Below, piece by piece: positions 3,001 to 62,830 of a DNA stretch of 64,000 bases. Source of the stretch: Lentisphaerota bacterium (GTDB lineage Bacteria > Verrucomicrobiota > Lentisphaeria > Victivallales > UBA1829); contig SUVR01000008.1 in NCBI GenBank assembly GCA_015061915.1, positions 1 through 64,000 on the forward strand. Reading direction: 5' to 3'. Numbering within the stretch: the stretch's first letter is position 1; the number at the start of each line of letters is the position of its first letter. The notes beneath the pieces were generated by a model that was given only the letters and a program-made list of their open reading frames with translations, did no database searches and was not told where the DNA came from. Position numbers and translations under genes: made by a program.

Positions 3001-4222
3001 AGAGGAAACCAGTGTCACCTTTACCGGCTTGAGCAGTCCGGATGGCAATTTTGTTCTTTCCGATACGGAAGTTACCTTCCAGGTGACGGATATGATCTCG
3101 CCGCTGATGCTGACGCATAATGTTACCGCTTCAGTCGAAAAGGTGTACGACGGTACCGTGAGCGTTGCGGTCTCCGGCGGCTTGACCAATGTGATCGGCT
3201 CCGATGATGTGACATTGAACGTTGAATATGTGTACAACAGTGCCAATGTGGCAGAAGCGGACAAGATCATCAATACGCAGTGGTCGATCAGTGGAACCGA
3301 TGCAAAGAATTATATTCTGCCGGTGCCCGCTCCCATGGATGGCGCAGCTGCCGTGATCACTGCAAAGCCGGTGGCGACCGAGTGGCAGACCGATCCGGTC
3401 TACTACTATCGGAACGAAGACCAGAGCGATACAGTTTCTGCCTGGTACACCGATATTTACGGCAACCGTGTGGAACTGGTGATCAACTGGCACGGGAAGG
3501 TGTTTGATCTGCCCGGCGAGTACGCCGTTACAGCGGAAAACAGCGATCCGAACTACAAATTGACCGGGAATGAAAAAGTCCTGGTGATGAACACAGTGGG
3601 TGTTTCCAATGTTACGAACTACAACGAAGGACTGAACCCCAACTTCTCCGTTGTGGTATCCGATATGCTGAACAGTTATCTGGCAAGCGGAAAAAATACG
3701 TATGCCGACGATGGCTGCTACTCCTGCATGGGATACACCTGCATGATCTCCCGCCTCTTCCTCTTCCGGGAAACGCTCCGCATTGAAACGGAACCGGTAA
3801 CGCTGGACCCGCTGGAATTCAAACCCTTTACCAGCGATGATGTTACCCGTGAGATGGCTCCCGGCGTGGCTGCCGGTGCGCATCGTCCGGAAGGTCTGTA
3901 CCTCGGCGAAGAGCTGTTCCTGCGCGATTCCAACCTGAACCGCAGCTGCAACGATACGCTGATCAATATTCAGCCGGAGATGGATACGGATGCCAACCGT
4001 CTGTATATTGAATCTGACCTGGTGAACAGTGATCTTACCGTGAAGAAAGTGTCGCTGGTATGCCCGGAAAGCGTGTTTGAAGAAGACGCGGTCGAGGCGT
4101 TGGATGATGTGCCGGAAGTGCAGCTGGTTTGCCCTGTTGCAGATACGGCGCCGGTCTGTAAAGAAGAATATGAAGATCTGCTGGATGAATTCCTGAATTC
4201 CCCACTCCTTCAGTTTTCCTGA
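2..4222 (+). CDS. YDG/MBG repeat surface protein, C-terminal part (5' end outside window)
   Basis: The reading frame is open from the first base, so only the last 1406 residues are visible. The protein is a chain of beta-rich repeats. YDG-type motifs (KVYDG, EYDG, KIYDG, RIYDG) recur near bases 14, 298, 889, 1460, 2312, 2870 and 3142, and they alternate with MBG-type units marked by IYGN or IYGS near 596, 2010 and 2611. Such repeats form the stalks of large secreted or surface-bound adhesin-like proteins in bacteria. The last 200 residues differ: they hold several Cys (near 3716-3745), are acidic, and end without a membrane anchor, sorting motif or beta-barrel that I can see. The secretion route and ligand cannot be read from this part. 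Confidence 0.85.
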   Translation, partial: YPVTKVYDGNTTATSAGGVLSGMVGSEQLTFTATDGVYNSKNVLEATTASFLVTLGDGANGGLASNYYVENVNASNKVEVAGTITVASVVIDTGALTREYDGTTTYQDITSTVNGVNGEVLGYTLSGGHFYAADGVTKTANVLEAKTVRFDNAVLNDNNGALASNYKITGVLDAQNRVMSSGTITAKAIEISANDVSGIIYGNSYTLTHTDPTGDLISGDQFSGLELFVDSTDRNSTNTAFNVGKHTISFKDGWKIIDSADGNADVTGNYIVTLNDATLEIIKATITINSVVVDDKIYDGNANANVSDYQWSANTAPLKAGTDDTLSVDVQSALFSDKNAADDKDVTVTFKLTGADAENYQFDTTNPWTTTATIEKKVLTVTALQPDAQVFGKVTESNLAGFLKYNVTGFVTGEEAIAAVSGDLSITNGEYWDNGGVKYLNAGSYAVTAANGALTSKSANYTIDFQPNNAVLTVTKAGVAVIVDAEKIYDASKIYDPASGNHNFTLVSDASGTLGAVLAPTSHFTLDSFTFSSDQVGNYSSTKDATTGSVSFNAPYLAKNYDLSVVYNGEITPRALTVNAGNYATVYNGADQTFTTAESTNDLGQKVSVTKSVTGKHAGTYLYDLSEADIQIRDVNGNLVDLKNFDLTINDGQLVIDKADVVITGVDQTMIYGNTQPALTYTFTIEGKAETALYDAANESFVGELALVNPQFSTSGNLKAGVWQIGQGTLYSIKDLNAANGGNYRVSYTPGATLTVEQREITLDSVDAVDRIYDGTDSAELGAYTLGNTVDRDLLQITAGNGAFNSKHATANGGATSAVFSGIVLGGADAENYLLVDSNGNAVTAATEYTDSNAQISRRDIKVWIDDAEKIYGSADPVFQWVADGLCTAVNETVTDITRQPGENAGDYAIDQFLIRDAANADVTGNYNVVQFRPGTLTIRPAEIPVTSFTVSGLEKIYDGDAFVEDTATLTFTFDNTLTGKTESVVVNWTQGMFDSKNVGEETSVTFTGLSSPDGNFVLSDTEVTFQVTDMISPLMLTHNVTASVEKVYDGTVSVAVSGGLTNVIGSDDVTLNVEYVYNSANVAEADKIINTQWSISGTDAKNYILPVPAPMDGAAAVITAKPVATEWQTDPVYYYRNEDQSDTVSAWYTDIYGNRVELVINWHGKVFDLPGEYAVTAENSDPNYKLTGNEKVLVMNTVGVSNVTNYNEGLNPNFSVVVSDMLNSYLASGKNTYADDGCYSCMGYTCMISRLFLFRETLRIETEPVTLDPLEFKPFTSDDVTREMAPGVAAGAHRPEGLYLGEELFLRDSNLNRSCNDTLINIQPEMDTDANRLYIESDLVNSDLTVKKVSLVCPESVFEEDAVEALDDVPEVQLVCPVADTAPVCKEEYEDLLDEFLNSPLLQFS

Positions 4223-4230
4223 AAAGAACA

Positions 4231-4255
4231 GGGATCCGGGAAATTCCCGGATCCC
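4231..4255. repeat. Perfect palindrome after the repeat-protein gene
   Basis: GGGATCCGGGA and its exact complement are separated by three bases, starting eight bases after the stop codon. The hairpin could protect or end the mRNA, but no T-run follows on either side, so an intrinsic terminator is not supported. Confidence 0.55.
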
Positions 4256-4516
4256 GGATCATGCTGTATCACAACGTCTGACAGCACAAAATAACCGGGA
4301 CTGTTGCAAAACCTCAAAAAGGTCGGCAGCGGTCCCGGTTCTTGTTTTGGAAACGCTTTGTTCTCAATAAGGAGAGATGGCGAAGACGCTGAAAAGAACA
4401 ATCCCCAAAAGGTGCCCTGTTCCTTGCACTCTGAGGCGCACGGGAACCGTTAGACATTTACACCGCCTCCTGTACGCCTTCAGCGTGCATCCGGAAGAGA
4501 CTCAGGGAGAAATATA

Positions 4517-4567
4517 AAAAAATTCCGGGCGGCATAAGGCTGTACGCGCCAGCCCGTTCGCCCGGAA
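4517..4567 (-). terminator. Intrinsic terminator of the purB-phosphoesterase operon
   Basis: Read on the minus strand, a 9-bp stem (TTCCGGGCG with CGCCCGGAA) is followed at once by seven T residues. It lies just beyond the stop codon of the phosphoesterase gene. Confidence 0.75.
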
Positions 4568-4585
4568 AAATATTGATCCGTGCAC

Positions 4586-5140
4586 TCAGCGGAATGAAAG
4601 CTGCATTTCCCGGTAGATGGATCCGTCTTTCAATGTCCGCACAGAGAGTATCCCGTTATCCCAGATCCCGTATGTGGGCAGATTTTCCTGCTTGGGGATG
4701 GCGATGGAGCCGGGGTTGAAGATGATCAATCCGTTCTTCTGCTCCAGTACGGGAATATGGGTGTGTCCGTGAGCAAGGATCGTTCCATCCGTTACCGGCG
4801 GCACATTCCCCCCGTTCCAGATATGACCGTGCGTCAGGAAGAAACGCTGACCGTCCGCCCAGACGGTCGAGTAGTCACTCATGATGGGATATTCCAGCAT
4901 CATCTGATCCACTTCGCTGTCGCAGTTGCCCCGGACAGCAATGATCTTTTTCTTGTAGATATTCAGCATTTCTGCTGCTTTTTTGGCATCATACATTCCG
5001 GGCAGGGCGTTCCGGGGACCGTGATACAGGGCATCGCCGAGCATCACGATCAGATCCGGTTTTTCGGCGGCGATCCGCAGCGTCAGGTTGCCGAGCGCCT
5101 CCGTGGAACCATGTGAATCGGAGAAGAACAGGATCTTCAT
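4586..5140 (-). CDS. YfcE/MJ0936-family phosphodiesterase
   Basis: A 184-residue metallophosphoesterase. The metal-binding blocks are all present in order: SDSHG near the N-terminus, LGD near residue 36, RGNCD near 70, THGH near 105 and GHTHIP near 126, followed by NPGS. Family members hydrolyse phosphodiesters with a Mn2+-type dinuclear centre; the natural substrate is mostly unknown. The start codon overlaps the purB stop by four bases (ATGA), so the two genes are translationally coupled. Full length for the family. Confidence 0.88.
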
Positions 5141-7357: not shown

Positions 7358-8308
7358 ATGGATCAGGGAAATCGTTTGTTGAGAATCGGGATTTTTTACG
7401 ATGGTAACTATTTTTACCATGTGAGCAACTATTATTGTTATGCTCACCCCCGCCGCGCCAGATTAAGTATCCCCGGATTGCACGATTTTGTCAAGAAAAT
7501 GATTTCTGAAAAAGAAGGGATCCCTGAAAAACTCTGTCAGATCGTGGATTGCCATTATTTCCGCGGCAGACTCCCCGCAATGGAGGCGAATGCACGGCAG
7601 ATCCTTCTCAATGAGCGTATCTTTGACGATATTCTTATGCGGGAAGGCGTGGTGACCCATTATCTGCCTATCACCAGAAATACCGAAAAAGGTGTGGATG
7701 TTTCCCTCGCATTGGAAACATTGGAATTGACGATTTTCAAAAAATTCAATATCGTGGTCCTCATCGCCAGCGATGGAGATTATGTGCCGCTGGTCCGGAA
7801 ACTCAATGCTCTCGGAACTCGGGTTATGGTGCTCGGATGGGATTTTGAATATGTGGACGATAACGGAAATACCCGTAATACTATCACCAGTACCCGCCTG
7901 ATGAATGAAGTGTCTTATCCTTTGCAGATGCACAAGATCATCAACGGCGAAGTTATCCCGCGCGACCGGAACTTTCAGGTGGATTCCCTCTTTGTGCAGT
8001 CCAATACCTTCGCTTTCAACCAACAGGAAAAAGAAGGTGTCATGGATTATTTTGAACCGGTTGAGGATGCGCCGGGAAATACAGAAGTCACTCAGATGAC
8101 CGGCAGAATCGTTCACCTGAAAAATGGATACGGCTTCATCGCTCCCGATGATGGTACCGACAGCATCTTCTTCTTCTGGCAGGATGTGCAGGATTGCGAT
8201 TTCAATGAACTGAATATCAATGACGCCGTAACCTACGAGCCCGGCAGAAATGAACGGGGTCCTTGCGCAAAAAATGTGGCGCGGATCGGAGTCGACGGAA
8301 ACCGGTGA
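7358..8308 (+). CDS. NYN-domain putative nuclease with C-terminal cold-shock domain
   Basis: A 316-residue two-domain protein. The N-terminal part is a NYN/PIN-like domain: FYDGN near residue 14 and the block VLIASDGDYVPLVRKL near 140 give the acidic residues of this metal-dependent RNase fold. The last 65 residues form a cold-shock OB fold with the RNA-binding motifs GYGFI and SIFFFW. The pairing suggests an enzyme that binds and cuts or processes RNA in the cytoplasm; this is inference. The ATG at 7358 has GGAG at a good distance, while the in-frame ATG at 7352 is one base from it and is unlikely. It ends at a strong bidirectional terminator element. Confidence 0.85.
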   Translation: MDQGNRLLRIGIFYDGNYFYHVSNYYCYAHPRRARLSIPGLHDFVKKMISEKEGIPEKLCQIVDCHYFRGRLPAMEANARQILLNERIFDDILMREGVVTHYLPITRNTEKGVDVSLALETLELTIFKKFNIVVLIASDGDYVPLVRKLNALGTRVMVLGWDFEYVDDNGNTRNTITSTRLMNEVSYPLQMHKIINGEVIPRDRNFQVDSLFVQSNTFAFNQQEKEGVMDYFEPVEDAPGNTEVTQMTGRIVHLKNGYGFIAPDDGTDSIFFFWQDVQDCDFNELNINDAVTYEPGRNERGPCAKNVARIGVDGNR

Positions 8309-8318
8309 CCCGTTCGAT

Positions 8319-8476
8319 ACGCCCGCACAGATAAGGCGGCATGGCACCGCGCCCGATCCGGGCGCGGTGCTTTTTTTGCAGCGCACCGCACTTTATGTGC
8401 GCTGCAAAAAAAGCGTGCGCGGCAGACCGCTTTTTGCGGTCAACCGCGCGCCATGCCGCCTTATCTGTGCGGGCGT
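8319..8476. repeat. Cloverleaf double-terminator element, copy 1
   Basis: A perfect 27-bp closing stem (8319-8345 with 8450-8476) surrounds three hairpins. Hairpin 1 (8344-8370, 12-bp stem) is followed by seven T: a terminator for the plus-strand gene. Hairpin 2 (8371-8412) is a perfect 16-bp stem that starts with those seven T and ends with seven A. Hairpin 3 (8417-8449), read on the minus strand, is followed by the complementary T-run: a terminator for the minus-strand genes. It fills the gap between two converging genes. Three other copies of the same design are in the window. Confidence 0.9.
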
Positions 8477-40522: not shown

Positions 40523-40975
40523 ATGAAACCGGAATTTGCAAAGTATCTGCAGCAAGATTCGATCCTCCTGCTGGAGGGTGAAACCAAGAAGCAAGTTTTT
40601 GAAGACATCGTTCAGCACGCCGCCACACGCTGCACCATGGATGAAGATCAGATCCGTGATGCCGTCTGGAAACGGGAACGTATGATGACCACCGGCGTCG
40701 GCAAAGGTCTGGCTCTGCCCCACATCCGTGTCAATGGCTTCCCCTCTCCCCTGATCATTGTCGGTATCTGCAAAAACCCCGTTGCCGACTACAAAAGCCT
40801 GGATAACCAGCCGATCAATCTGGTGGTCTTCCTCGCCGCTGACGAACGGGATCAGGAAGCATACCTGAAACTGCTGGGCAGCATCTCTTCCAAGGTCAAG
40901 GAAGAAGGCGTGATCGCTGAGATCCTCACAGCCGGTGACGACCGGGCAAAGATCCAGGAGATCCTCTCCCGCTGA
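40523..40975 (+). CDS. PTS EIIA protein, PtsN/fructose type
   Basis: A 150-residue EIIA domain protein. The phosphorylated histidine is H67 in GLALPHIR. The fold matches the PTS_EIIA type 2 family throughout, including the TTGVGKG before the histidine and LLGSISS later. It may regulate or transfer phosphate like PtsN; no EIIB, EIIC or HPr gene is in the window. The gene is monocistronic, flanked by its promoter and a strong terminator. Confidence 0.85.
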   Translation: MKPEFAKYLQQDSILLLEGETKKQVFEDIVQHAATRCTMDEDQIRDAVWKRERMMTTGVGKGLALPHIRVNGFPSPLIIVGICKNPVADYKSLDNQPINLVVFLAADERDQEAYLKLLGSISSKVKEEGVIAEILTAGDDRAKIQEILSR

Positions 40976-41002: not shown

Positions 41003-41033
41003 AAAGCCGTTCCGATTCCGGAACGGCTTTTTT
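41003..41033 (+). terminator. Terminator of the EIIA gene
   Basis: A perfect 12-bp stem (AAAGCCGTTCCG with its complement) with a 4-base loop, ending in six T. The T-run is also the left edge of the cloverleaf element. Confidence 0.92.
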
Positions 41034-41181
41034 CGTGCCCCGATGAGGCGGCGGTCACAGCGCGCCAACCAGCCGGATGGCTGGCGCGCAGCTTTTTTTA
41101 CGCAGCGCAGAGCTGCTGTGTAAAAAAAGTGCCGGAGCCGGCTGCTCCGGCGTGACCGCCGCCTCATCGGGGCACGAAAAA
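41029..41181. repeat. Cloverleaf double-terminator element, copy 2
   Basis: A perfect 30-bp closing stem (41029-41058 with 41152-41181) surrounds three hairpins. Hairpin 1 is at 41060-41089 followed by seven T (41093-41099). Hairpin 2 pairs those T with seven A (41093-41106 with 41115-41128, one G-T pair). Hairpin 3 (41131-41151, 8-bp stem) ends on the minus strand in that T-run. It shares the hairpin-3 stem GCCGGAGC and the T-run flank TTTTTTTACGCA with copy 3. It lies between two converging genes, nested between their own terminators. Confidence 0.9.
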
Positions 41182-41209
41182 GCCCTGCGGGAAAAATCCC
41201 GTCAGGGCT
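41177..41209 (-). terminator. Terminator of pal
   Basis: Read on the minus strand, AGCCCTG pairs with CAGGGCT around an inner GGGA/TCCC stem, followed by five T. It mirrors the EIIA terminator on the other side of the cloverleaf element. Confidence 0.8.
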
Positions 41210-41242: not shown

Positions 41243-41896
41243 TTACTTGTTCATCAGGACCGGAACAAAGTCGGCGCGACGGTTCCGCTGCCATGCGGTG
41301 TTGTTGCTGCCGGAGACTGCCGGTTTATCTTCGCCGTAGCTGAGGGTTCTGATCCGGGCTTCGCTGATGCCATTGGCGACCAGTTCATCTTTCACTGCGG
41401 AAGCTCTGCGTTCGCCCAGGGCGCGGTTATATTCCTGAGTACCCCGTTCATCGCAGTTCCCTTCGATCACAACGCCGGTGCCGGGGTTGGTCTTCAGGAA
41501 GGTGACGATTGCGCTGATCTTGGCGCTTTCGGTGGGAGCGACTGCAAAGGTATCGAAGGGGAAGTAGACCGGCATGAAATCGGGGGCGTTGGTGATCTTT
41601 CTGCCGAAACCGTCTACGTAATCCTGATCTTCCGGGTTGAATTCGCCGTAGCCGCCTGCCTGATTGTTTTCGCCTTCGCCATTGCCGAAGCCGTTATCGC
41701 CGCTTTCGAGACCGAAACCGTTGCCGCCGTTGCCGTTTTTGCCGTCGCCGGTGGTGAAGCCGTTATCGTTGCCGACGGGTTTTTCACCGATCCAGAACAT
41801 ACTGTCCGGGCGTTCGGTGTCTTCGGTACAAGCGGTGGAGAGACCGGCGATGCCGAGAGAAACGGCTGCGATCATAGCGAACTTTGTCATTTTCAT
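41243..41896 (-). CDS. pal: Peptidoglycan-associated lipoprotein (Pal/OmpA family)
   Basis: A 217-residue outer-membrane lipoprotein. Signal peptide with lipobox LSTAC (Cys23). Residues 38-85 are a Gly/Asn-rich flexible linker. The C-terminal OmpA-like domain has FPFDTFAVAP, EGNCDERGTQEYNRALGERRA and RNRRADF, the peptidoglycan-binding blocks of Pal. The rest of the Tol system is not in the window. AAAGGA precedes the start. A promoter lies at 41946-41973, back to back with that of ilvE. Confidence 0.92.
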   Translation of the reverse strand: MKMTKFAMIAAVSLGIAGLSTACTEDTERPDSMFWIGEKPVGNDNGFTTGDGKNGNGGNGFGLESGDNGFGNGEGENNQAGGYGEFNPEDQDYVDGFGRKITNAPDFMPVYFPFDTFAVAPTESAKISAIVTFLKTNPGTGVVIEGNCDERGTQEYNRALGERRASAVKDELVANGISEARIRTLSYGEDKPAVSGSNNTAWQRNRRADFVPVLMNK

Positions 41897-55054: not shown

Positions 55055-56800
55055 ATGAAAATGAGAATGTCCCAGATGGTCGGCAAGCGCCTGCGCGAAG
55101 ACCCCAAAGATGCAAAAACAGACAGTCACAAGATTCTGGTTCGCGGCGGTTATATCCGCCCCGTTTCTGCCGGGATCTACTCACTGCTTCCGGTGGCAAA
55201 ACGTATTATCCGCAAGATCGAAGAGATCATCCGGGAAGAGATGAACGCCATCGACGGTCAGGAAGTCCTGATGCCGGTGGTTCTGCCCGCAGAACTCTGG
55301 CAGGAATCCGGCCGCTATGAAAGCGTGGGCGAAGAACTGCTCCGTTTCAAAGACCGCAACGATAAGGCAATGCTCCTCGGTATGACGCACGAAGAAGCCG
55401 TGGTGCAGCTGGTCCGTACCGAAGTCAACAGCTACAAACAGCTGCCGATTATGGTCTATCAGATCCAGACCAAGTACCGTGACGAAGCCCGTCCCAGAGC
55501 CGGTCTGATCCGTGTCCGCGAGTTTACTATGAAGGACGCTTACAGCTTCCATACCAGTCAGGAATCCCTGGATGAATATTATGAACGCGCGCACGCCGCA
55601 TACGAAAAGATCTATCGTCGTGTCGGTCTGAAAAATGTGGTGTCCATCCTCTCCAACTCCGGTATGATGGGCGGCAGTATCTCCCACGAGTTTATGGCTC
55701 TGGCAGACTGCGGCGAAGACAGCATTTTCCTCTCCCCGGACGGCAAGAGCTACAAGGCGAACCGGGAAGTGGCAGTCTCCGGTCTCAAGTTTGAAAAGAA
55801 TGTCGCCGATGAACTGCCCATGGAAAAGGTGGCAACGCCCGGACAGAAGACCATTGAAGAAGTGGCAAACTTCCTCGGCGTGGAAGCATATCAGACCGGT
55901 AAGGCTGTGTTCTACTCCGATGCCGAAGGAAAGAAGCTGATCTTCGTGCTGATCCGCGGCGACTTTGAAGTGAATGAATGTAAACTGAAAAATCTGCTGG
56001 GATTGAACGAGATCAAGTTCGCAACGGATGAACAGATCCGTGCCGTCGGTTCCGTGCCGGGATACGCTTCCCCCATCGGATTGGATCAGAGCAAAATGAT
56101 CCTGGTGGTGGACCATTCCGCTGCCGGTACTGCCAACCTGGTCGTCGGAGCCAATGAAGCCGATCAGCACTACAAAAACTTCAACTACGGCAGAGATCTG
56201 GAAGGCGGGATCGTGGCTGACGTGGCGTGCGTCCGCGAAGGCGACCCGTGCCCCGTTACCGGTGAGCCGCTCCAGTTCCGTCACGGGATCGAAGTGGGTA
56301 ATATCTTCCAGCTGGGTACAAAGTATTCCAAACCGATGAACTGCACTTATTTGGATAAGGATGGCAAATCACAGGTCATGATCATGGGCTGTTACGGGAT
56401 CGGTGTCGGCAGAACGATGGCGACCGTGGTGGAAGAAAGTCATGACAACTACGGTCCGATCTGGCCTATGAGCATTGCGCCCTATCAGGTGCAGGTCTGC
56501 GCTTTGAATCCGGACAAAGACGGCGTGGGCGAAGCCGCTGAAAAACTCAGCGATGAACTGGATAAACTGGGCGTGGAAGTCCTCTTCGATGACCGGGGCG
56601 AAAAAGCCGGTTCCATGTTCAGCGATGCCGACCTTCTGGGTGTGCCGTTCCGCGTGATCGTCTCTCCCAAGAGCCTCGCCAACGGAATGGTGGAATTCCG
56701 TCTGCGCTCCAGCCGCGATACGGAACTCATCCCCGTGGCAGAAGCCGCAGCTATCCTCGCCGGTCGCGTGAAGGAAGAACTGGCAAAATATCAGGACTGA
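55055..56800 (+). CDS. proS: Prolyl-tRNA synthetase
   Basis: A 581-residue class II synthetase of the bacterial type. Motif 1 lies around LMPVVLPAELW, motif 2 around YRDEARPRAGLIRVREFTMKDAYSF, here given in parts, and motif 3 is GIGVGRTMATVVE. The YbaK-like editing domain is inserted between motifs 2 and 3 (about residues 235-385), and the anticodon-binding domain ends the protein. Ahead of it is the deacetylase-like gene, 18 bases away. It ends at the third cloverleaf element. Confidence 0.97.
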   Translation: MKMRMSQMVGKRLREDPKDAKTDSHKILVRGGYIRPVSAGIYSLLPVAKRIIRKIEEIIREEMNAIDGQEVLMPVVLPAELWQESGRYESVGEELLRFKDRNDKAMLLGMTHEEAVVQLVRTEVNSYKQLPIMVYQIQTKYRDEARPRAGLIRVREFTMKDAYSFHTSQESLDEYYERAHAAYEKIYRRVGLKNVVSILSNSGMMGGSISHEFMALADCGEDSIFLSPDGKSYKANREVAVSGLKFEKNVADELPMEKVATPGQKTIEEVANFLGVEAYQTGKAVFYSDAEGKKLIFVLIRGDFEVNECKLKNLLGLNEIKFATDEQIRAVGSVPGYASPIGLDQSKMILVVDHSAAGTANLVVGANEADQHYKNFNYGRDLEGGIVADVACVREGDPCPVTGEPLQFRHGIEVGNIFQLGTKYSKPMNCTYLDKDGKSQVMIMGCYGIGVGRTMATVVEESHDNYGPIWPMSIAPYQVQVCALNPDKDGVGEAAEKLSDELDKLGVEVLFDDRGEKAGSMFSDADLLGVPFRVIVSPKSLANGMVEFRLRSSRDTELIPVAEAAAILAGRVKEELAKYQD

Positions 56801-56835: not shown

Positions 56836-56970
56836 GCGGGGGCAGGGCGGTCCTTTGGCAGCGGACAGGCAAAAATGCCTGCCGCTGCCAACTGTTTTTT
56901 TTACGCACAAACTTGTGCGTAAAAAAACAGCGCCGGAGCGTGGCTCCGGCAGGACCGCCCTGCCGCCCGC
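56836..56970. repeat. Cloverleaf double-terminator element, copy 3
   Basis: Closing stem of 14 bp, one bulge and 5 bp (56836-56854 with 56951-56970). Hairpin 1 (56855-56891) ends in a run of eight T. Hairpin 2 (56892-56930) pairs CTG plus T-run and ACGCACAA with the complement, one T bulged. Hairpin 3 (56932-56950, stem GCCGGAGC) ends on the minus strand in the A-run complement. This copy lies between two genes in the same direction, unlike the other three, so only its plus-strand terminator has an obvious use. Confidence 0.88.
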
Positions 56971-61062: not shown

Positions 61063-62652
61063 ATGAAAAAATATACTCTTCTGGCAGCAATTCTTCTTGC
61101 TTCCGCTCTTTCTGCAGAAGAAATGGTTGTTTCACCTGCACCTGCCACCCCGCGTGTCAACAATAACACGGAAGGCAGTGCTTACGGTGCCAGTGAAGTT
61201 CAAACACACCTGCGGGTGGATGTGAAAGACGATACCAATGCTGTCCGGTTCATCCGGGACAATAATGCCCCCTTCGTGGTGACCAAAGCATTTCCGCTGA
61301 AGCACGCTGATGCGTACGAGATCCGTGGCTATATTGTGGCAGCAATTTCCGGAAAACAGTTCAGTTCCAGCCCGGTCACGGTGGATGCCATCAAGTTTTA
61401 TGACGGATCCAGTATGCTGATCGTATCTGCTGAAGCGTATCGCTTTGAAGAAAACGGAAAAGGCGAAAGTATCGGCAGCATCATCAGCCGTCTGGACAAA
61501 AAAGGCTTCCCGTACAGCAGCGGCAAGCCGAAGTTCATCTATTATCCCAAAGCCAATACCGCCGCCAACCTGAAAAAAATGCTTCTGAATGTGGGCGCAG
61601 CAAAAGGCAGCAGCGTTGACTTCAGCAACGGGATCGATGCCATTGTGGTGGATGGTCAGCTCAATGCGCTTGTCTTTGCTTTGCCGTACTGGTCCTGGAA
61701 CAGCGTGAAAACCATGCTCGGTGAGTATGACAAACCATTGCCGGAAGTACGGGTGAGCTACAAGTTGGTGGAAGTCGACCGGGAAAATGATGATAAGTTC
61801 GGAATCGACTTCCAGAACTGGAAGAACAACGATGGTGTGGATCTGCTGTCCGTCGGCGGAAGATACCGGAATAACTGGGCATCCACTTTCGGTGCCGCCG
61901 GTCCCGCTCACACCGGCAGCAACAAGACCGAATATTTTAATGTGAACCCCAAATGGAATACAAAATATCTGGATTTTTTGACCAGTACCGGCAGAGCAAA
62001 GGTCCTGACTCACGGTACGCTGCTCGCCAGAAACCGGAAACAGTCAACCGTCAATGTGGCATCCGGCTTGTTCTATGACAATGTTTCGGAGAATGCAGCA
62101 GGAACCACGATCAATGCCCGGATCGTCCCCGGCGATGAAACAGCTCCTGTGGATATGATGGTCCAGCGGGGAAAGAAACAGGAAACCGCCGCCGCAGACG
62201 GTTTTGAATTCAATCTGATACTTGATCCGGTCGTTACCGGTGCCGGTGCCACTCTGGCGCTGGATCTGAGCAGCAGCAGTCTCATCGGCTGGAACAGCGA
62301 TGGCTCCCCGCGCCTGAACCGGAGCAGCTTTAAGACGGATGTACAGGTCGGCTATAATGGCGGCGAATTTGTAGTGGGCGGTATCCGGAAAGTCAGCGTG
62401 GTGCGCGGAGTCGCCGGTTTGCCGTTCCTGAAAGACCTGCCGTTCCTCGGCTGGCTTTTCAGTACGGAAAGTGAATCCACAAAGACCACAGATCTTGTGC
62501 TGATCCTGCAGACCGAATATGTGAACCCCGTCGACGCCGTTCCGGAACAGATCCGGCACGATGTGGGAAAGATCGTGGAAGATGTGCAGCATGGCATCAA
62601 CAGTCCGGTAAACAATCTGGGCTTTGAGCAGATCGGTCTCGACCGGAAGTAA
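61063..62652 (+). CDS. Secretin-like protein 2
   Basis: A 529-residue exported protein with a signal peptide (about 1-18). Residues 65-130 look like an N-domain (AFPLKHADAYEIRGYIVAA). The C-terminal half carries the secretin core, with GGEFVVGGIRK, then GLPFLKDLPFLGWLF and LVLILQTEYVNP. This second copy keeps the signature better than the first. AAGGAG in the end of the first gene gives its ribosome site. No other type II, III or IV pilus genes are nearby, so the system partner is unknown. It ends at cloverleaf copy 4. Confidence 0.75.
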   Translation: MKKYTLLAAILLASALSAEEMVVSPAPATPRVNNNTEGSAYGASEVQTHLRVDVKDDTNAVRFIRDNNAPFVVTKAFPLKHADAYEIRGYIVAAISGKQFSSSPVTVDAIKFYDGSSMLIVSAEAYRFEENGKGESIGSIISRLDKKGFPYSSGKPKFIYYPKANTAANLKKMLLNVGAAKGSSVDFSNGIDAIVVDGQLNALVFALPYWSWNSVKTMLGEYDKPLPEVRVSYKLVEVDRENDDKFGIDFQNWKNNDGVDLLSVGGRYRNNWASTFGAAGPAHTGSNKTEYFNVNPKWNTKYLDFLTSTGRAKVLTHGTLLARNRKQSTVNVASGLFYDNVSENAAGTTINARIVPGDETAPVDMMVQRGKKQETAAADGFEFNLILDPVVTGAGATLALDLSSSSLIGWNSDGSPRLNRSSFKTDVQVGYNGGEFVVGGIRKVSVVRGVAGLPFLKDLPFLGWLFSTESESTKTTDLVLILQTEYVNPVDAVPEQIRHDVGKIVEDVQHGINSPVNNLGFEQIGLDRK

Positions 62653-62661
62653 CAACCGGCA

Positions 62662-62830
62662 TACAACACGCACGGAAAGGCGCAGTCCCGCCCGGAACGG
62701 CAGCAAGCCGTTCCGGGCGCATTTTTTTTCTGCGGTGTGTCAGCGTTCCGCTGCACCGCAGAAAAAAGTGCAAGCCCCACAGCCATACGGCAGTGGGGCT
62801 TGGGGACTGCGCCTTTCCGTGCGTGTTGTA
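62662..62830. repeat. Cloverleaf double-terminator element, copy 4
   Basis: A perfect 28-bp closing stem (62662-62689 with 62803-62830). Hairpin 1 (62690-62718, 11-bp stem) leads into eight T (62722-62729). Hairpin 2 pairs TTTTTTCTGCGGTG (62724-62737) with its complement (62754-62767), with an inner CAGCG/CGCTG stem. Hairpin 3 (62771-62802, 10-bp stem) ends on the minus strand in the T-run. It fills the gap between the second secretin-like gene and the convergent HD gene. Confidence 0.9.

Follow-up and report, generated by a model that had tools for sequence, protein, structure and literature searches.

The closest described systems are two-way terminators and small palindromic repeats. In Bacillus cereus, shared bidirectional terminators are more conserved than one-way ones (PMC5381666). 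REP sequences and BIMEs are dispersed extragenic palindromes that lie mostly between unidirectional and convergent genes, and NEMIS, YPAL/ERIC and EFAR are small bacterial MITEs (PMC3733652, where the latter are listed). In E. coli, inverted repeats with cruciform potential are enriched just downstream of stop codons, at gene ends (PMC6060812). Here we describe a compound palindrome in a 64,000-nucleotide stretch of Lentisphaerota DNA (the window). The host genome is a 2.49 Mb draft in 31 contigs, and the named relatives found via the PTS-type protein encoded beside the locus are Lentisphaeria of the rumen and gut. Rfam gave no match above the gathering score anywhere in the window.

The locus at 41003-41209 consists of two ordinary terminators on either side of a 30-bp inverted repeat that encloses three hairpins (H1 to H3; Table 1). 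It is predicted to fold as RNA with a minimum free energy of -172 kcal/mol (z = -16.0) and also folds strongly as DNA (z = -16.9), and none of 200 shuffles did as well in either case. The flanking genes, 40523-40975 (+) and 41243-41896 (-), converge on it; judging from their translations, the left one resembles a PTS IIA-type protein and the right one a Pal-like lipoprotein. The left outer hairpin has 12 bp with no mismatch, an ATTC loop and a T6 tract at 41028-41033. Both outer terminators had been anticipated in the original prediction, as had a closing stem that begins in the outer T-run, and the T5/A5 base of this stem, its first five bases, is indeed formed by the two outer U-tracts. A simple terminator scan listed the inner terminators alone; the outer pair was read from sequence and fold. 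Inside the closing stem, H1 is followed by T7 on the plus strand and H3 by T7 on the minus strand, the hallmark of a bidirectional terminator, and these two inner U-tracts face each other around the GC-rich core of H2. The two arms are complementary at 30 of 30 positions, so that, as also predicted, the same sequence (the "tag") precedes the inner T-runs on both mRNAs; it is the symmetry of the inverted repeat that forces this identity.

Table 1. Features of the locus at 41003-41209, further copies in the window and orthologous copies in the sister species (G001)
Feature	Position	Strand	Description
Outer terminator of left-hand gene	41003..41033	+	Hairpin 41003-41014/41019-41030; from sequence and fold
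Left arm of closing stem ("tag")	41029..41058	+	Family motif GAGGCGGCGGTCAC at inner end
Hairpin H1	41060..41089	+	Predicted inner terminator hairpin, rightward transcription
Hairpin H2	41091..41130	.	T7 41093-41099 paired with A7 41122-41128
Hairpin H3	41131..41151	-	GCCGGAGC...GCTCCGGC module; predicted inner terminator hairpin, leftward transcription
Right arm of closing stem	41152..41181	-	Exact reverse complement of left arm
Outer terminator of right-hand gene	41177..41209	-	From sequence and fold; U-tract from A5 41177-41181
Second copy	8319..8476	.	In a convergent gap; gene ends at 8308 (+) and 8483 (-)
Third copy	62662..62830	.	In a convergent gap; gene ends at 62652 (+) and 62838 (-)
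Fourth copy	56838..56967	.	37 nt downstream of gene ending at 56800; next gene in same direction
Ortholog of 8319-8476	L170 134-271		In G001
Ortholog of 62662-62830	L130 3548-3709		In G001
Ortholog of L070 7046	L137		In G001
Ortholog of C25:145453	L192		In G001
Ortholog of C21:34708	L196		In G001

The locus belongs to a family. We surveyed 41 stretches of the host genome (832 kb, about a third of it), 14 of which had been fetched around T-run/A-run hairpin candidates and the others regardless of elements. A mechanical finder, which asked for perfect or near-perfect arms 40-260 nt apart and did not require three hairpins, returned 24 elements, and these have three terminal loops in 22 cases and four in 2. 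A stricter parser also returned 24, gaining L071 9842 and losing L076 9757; all have exactly three junction branches and a closing stem of 13-33 bp, and each junction segment leaves 0-3 nt unpaired, mostly 0-1. The elements are about 120-185 bp long. First-order Markov sequence of matching size contained none. The 7 elements in the 389 kb fetched regardless of elements correspond to roughly 45 per genome by rough extrapolation, and a covariance model built from nine trimmed elements recovered five more copies in the host genome. The copies share their fold more than their sequence, and thus a DNA similarity search with an element finds little besides itself. The bare T-run/A-run pattern was discarded as a family marker, as it is unspecific (84 matches versus 118 in the reversed control).

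From either flanking gene inward, the order is arm, terminator hairpin, U-tract. Within a copy, the sequences of H1 and H3 are unlike, which makes the element a cross and not one long hairpin. In about 15 of the 24 elements, H1 and H3 are each followed within a few nucleotides by T5-T8 on their own strand, and in about 15 the base of H2 is formed by pairing between the U-tracts after H1 and H3. In L070 9855, L071 3492, L083 and L098 one hairpin has the usual two-way terminator form, its 5' side carrying an A-run and its 3' side a T-run. A minority of copies, for instance L091 and L100, lack a clear U-tract after H1 or H3. The original prediction had extended the arrangement at 41003-41209 to every such element. 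This stood for the cloverleaf and the same tag on both sides, which every convergent copy has, and failed for the additional outer terminators, which are the exception: of the four longest gaps, folded and inspected by eye, 41003-41209 and L080 8365-8528 have them on both sides and L075 has one on one side. The copies at 8319-8476 and 62662-62830 are without them.

Placement relative to genes is strongly biased. For this analysis we used a catalogue of 28 copies, comprising the 24 of the parser together with L076 9757, L072 about 9684, L073 about 9781 and L108 6406. Across the 832 kb, 17 of the 28 lie in convergent gaps (67 such gaps in all), 11 in tandem gaps (406) and none in divergent gaps (77; Fisher p = 3e-10). 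These counts are approximate, as genes were called with a simple, purpose-written hexamer-based caller. The bias persists when gaps of at least 120 nt alone are counted (17/32 convergent, 11/93 tandem, 0/74 divergent), and in the stretches not fetched around candidates (8/46, 5/285 and 0/54, respectively; p = 2e-5). The arm of an element often starts 6-40 nt past the stop codon. A different palindromic repeat, built around GTGCCGC..GCGGCACAA units in tandem, fills two other convergent gaps of the host genome (L093 about 1700-1960 and L099 about 330-620).

The copies share descent. When elements were compared with the 832 kb by BLAST, all 19 of 19 non-self matches fell in other elements. The hairpin GCCGGAGC...GCTCCGGC occurs 8 times in the 832 kb, always within elements, two of the occurrences being imperfect copies. 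Two copies 3.5 kb apart, L108 2935-3103 and 6406-6576, each in a convergent gap, are 87% identical; their similarity ends at the element edges, with none detected in the flanks, which we read as recent copying or gene conversion. The arms of different copies carry a polarised consensus, about GGCGGCGGTCC, at the junction. Their mean local score is 7.30 when compared sense to sense, versus 6.03 +/- 0.10 for shuffled arms and 6.14 for sense against antisense, and their information content anchored at the junction is 3.27 versus 1.08 +/- 0.22.

The only other genome of the genus (the sister species G001), which is 82-92% identical over the larger stretches compared, keeps at least five orthologous copies. 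In four ortholog pairs the stems are 86-92% identical and the arms 90.5%, versus 42-50% for the hairpin loops and 85% for coding sequence; arm identity is 93-98% in three of the four fully aligned pairs. The closing stem of 62662-62830 differs from that of its ortholog by double compensatory changes. Both arms of 8319-8476 are shortened alike in its ortholog, from 27 to 17 bp, and remain perfectly complementary. The ortholog of 41003-41209 is incomplete, as its contig (L034, from a public MAG) stops precisely with the final base of the left arm, equivalent to 41058 in the window, presumably because an inverted repeat longer than the k-mer breaks short-read assembly. What is present of it keeps the hairpin and U-tract of the left outer terminator, with changes in and beside the loop, and differs at about 6 of 25 positions in the left arm. 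G001 also has a full element (L170 4046-4230) beside the ortholog of the window gene 4586-5140. At the corresponding place in the window (4222-4586), unlike in G001, the element is absent and the neighbouring gene is a different one.

Outside the genus, no elements turned up in 842 kb of sequence from other genera in the family and order. A covariance model (R1) was run against 61 relatives and against 388 genomes of the phylum, with part of the candidates scored, and gave full-size matches in this genus alone. The matches in G060 and other genomes of genera g30 and g37 span about 50-67 nt only. Two of the matches were followed up and set aside as family members: L193 (G060) folds as the simple hairpin of another, unrelated repeat, and L194, the single match in G049, as ordinary separate terminators. 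G060, a relative from another family (f4), carries dozens of copies of the repeat at L193 (G060:C64:22800-22853), each an approximately 54-nt near-perfect hairpin in which a T-run faces an A-run, and five more genomes of the same genus as G060 have matches of similar size.

We consider it probable that 41003-41209 holds a member of a genus-specific family of dispersed palindromic repeats whose role is to stop transcription in both directions; that it terminates transcription we infer from its anatomy and placement. RNA polymerase arriving from the left would make H1 and be released in the T-run that follows; arriving from the right, it would make H3 and be released in the T-run after H3 on the opposite strand. 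The facing T-runs are set apart by the H2 core, so the converging mRNAs would end without overlap and could not form antisense duplexes with each other. Pairing of the arms would be confined to RNA made by read-through and to DNA that is extruded or single-stranded, where it would close a compact four-way junction. The duplex of 13-33 bp would be a natural RNase III target, and thus the added role of the closing stem may most likely be that of a second barrier against read-through, which is a guess. Three observations count against this explanation. The closing stem and the palindromic H2 core are conserved though termination needs neither, a further terminator is redundant where outer ones exist, as at 41003-41209, and the minority of copies named above lacks a clear U-tract after H1 or H3.

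With somewhat less than an even chance in our estimate, the elements are mainly non-autonomous mobile repeats, similar to MITEs or REPs, of which the arms are the terminal inverted repeats. The bias towards convergent gaps would then reflect purging, an insertion surviving only downstream of genes. The polarised arm consensus fits this reading, as do the two L108 copies, 87% identical, whose homology is limited to the element. At 41003-41209 and L080 the element lies between two complete, pre-existing terminators, which suggests that copies arrived in gaps already holding terminators and favours a mobile origin. The copy at L170 4046-4230 likewise occupies a locus that has no element in the host genome, although the neighbouring gene there differs too. 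Against mobility, no target-site duplication was seen by eye in the 10-nt flanks of 24 copies, and most copies are far too diverged in sequence for recent spread. No partner transposase was identified either: the single Y1 match is to a short fragment, and none of these repeats lies close to it. As origin and function are separate questions, mobility and two-way termination are not exclusive.

In a further reading, selection acts on the complete, fully paired four-way junction, either as a DNA cruciform or in read-through RNA. In that case the element would be an insulator between converging genes, made of two facing terminators and a shape-specific signal that is recognised and kept while the sequence drifts; we regard this as rather unlikely. 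A role at the DNA level, in which the unit copes with positive supercoils accumulating between converging polymerases, either by extruding as a cruciform or by attracting gyrase or a nucleoid protein, seems to us improbable. It would account for the convergent placement, the strong DNA fold and the conservation of the whole four-way structure, including the closing stem and H2 core that terminated RNAs lack, and E. coli BIMEs are a precedent as gyrase sites. However, positive supercoiling disfavours cruciforms, and the fixed place of the U-tracts indicates termination at the RNA level. We hold it to be similarly doubtful that the perfect arms are a mutational by-product, replication template switching having copied arm onto arm in a closing stem under no selection. 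The joint change in arm length at 8319-8476, with complementarity kept perfect, is what such switching would produce, but arm sequences are conserved in most of the fully aligned pairs, every copy has the three hairpins and the tight junction, and placement is strongly biased.

That the identical arms are 3' tags through which a single RNA-binding protein or small RNA controls the two mRNAs of a pair, as originally proposed, is very unlikely: the arms are identical in sense within each convergent copy, share a polarised motif across copies and are in several cases conserved between the species, but an inverted repeat necessarily makes the arms of a copy identical, the arm at 41003-41209 varies between the two species as given above and is shielded by outer terminators, and common descent appears to explain the shared motif as well as a binding factor would, with nothing favouring the factor. 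The outer terminators precede the tag on both sides at 41003-41209 and probably stop most transcripts before it, so there the tag may rarely be transcribed; in copies such as 8319-8476 and 62662-62830 it would sit in the main transcripts.

Converging genes need their transcripts stopped without overlap, and one genus appears to use a recurring compound architecture at such gaps. Since its copies differ in sequence and keep the fold, they offer an experimental handle on why structure beyond two terminators is conserved, with read-through clean-up, DNA topology and mobility as candidate reasons. The family is likely under-counted in public genomes, because arms that exceed the assembler k-mer can break metagenome assemblies there. 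A literature search found no description of a four-way terminator family, which is weak evidence of novelty, as subscription papers were mostly outside its reach.

Compared with the known systems, the family resembles bidirectional intrinsic (Rho-independent) terminators in having a hairpin and U-tract readable on both strands at the ends of converging genes. It differs from them in that two separate facing hairpins are enclosed, together with a third one, by a closing stem of 13-33 bp, in a unit that recurs in related copies. Like REP sequences and BIMEs, the copies are dispersed extragenic palindromes between unidirectional and convergent genes. REPs, however, are 20-40 bp long with a GTAG or CGTC foot, whereas the family consists of 120-185 bp four-way units with three hairpins, and no common foot is visible in the flanks of its copies. 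A link to REP-type transposases was rejected, as the one match, in a short degenerate ORF with no such repeats within 1.5 kb, spans 59 of the 121 PF01797 positions, and no intact REP-associated transposase gene was seen. With NEMIS, YPAL/ERIC and EFAR the family has in common a size of 100-200 bp, strong transcribed structures beside genes and terminal inverted repeats, here arms of 13-33 bp with a polarised consensus across copies. EFAR has reportedly been described as a two-way terminator, and NEMIS stems are said to be RNase III targets. Unlike these MITEs, the family shows no target duplication, shares its architecture more than its sequence, and has a fixed four-way junction with facing U-tracts. 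The cruciform-capable repeats of E. coli likewise sit downstream of genes, but the ones studied are mostly single terminators, with short spacers, whereas the elements here are compound. The family is thus genus-specific and previously uncatalogued, a variation on two-way terminators and small palindromic repeats.
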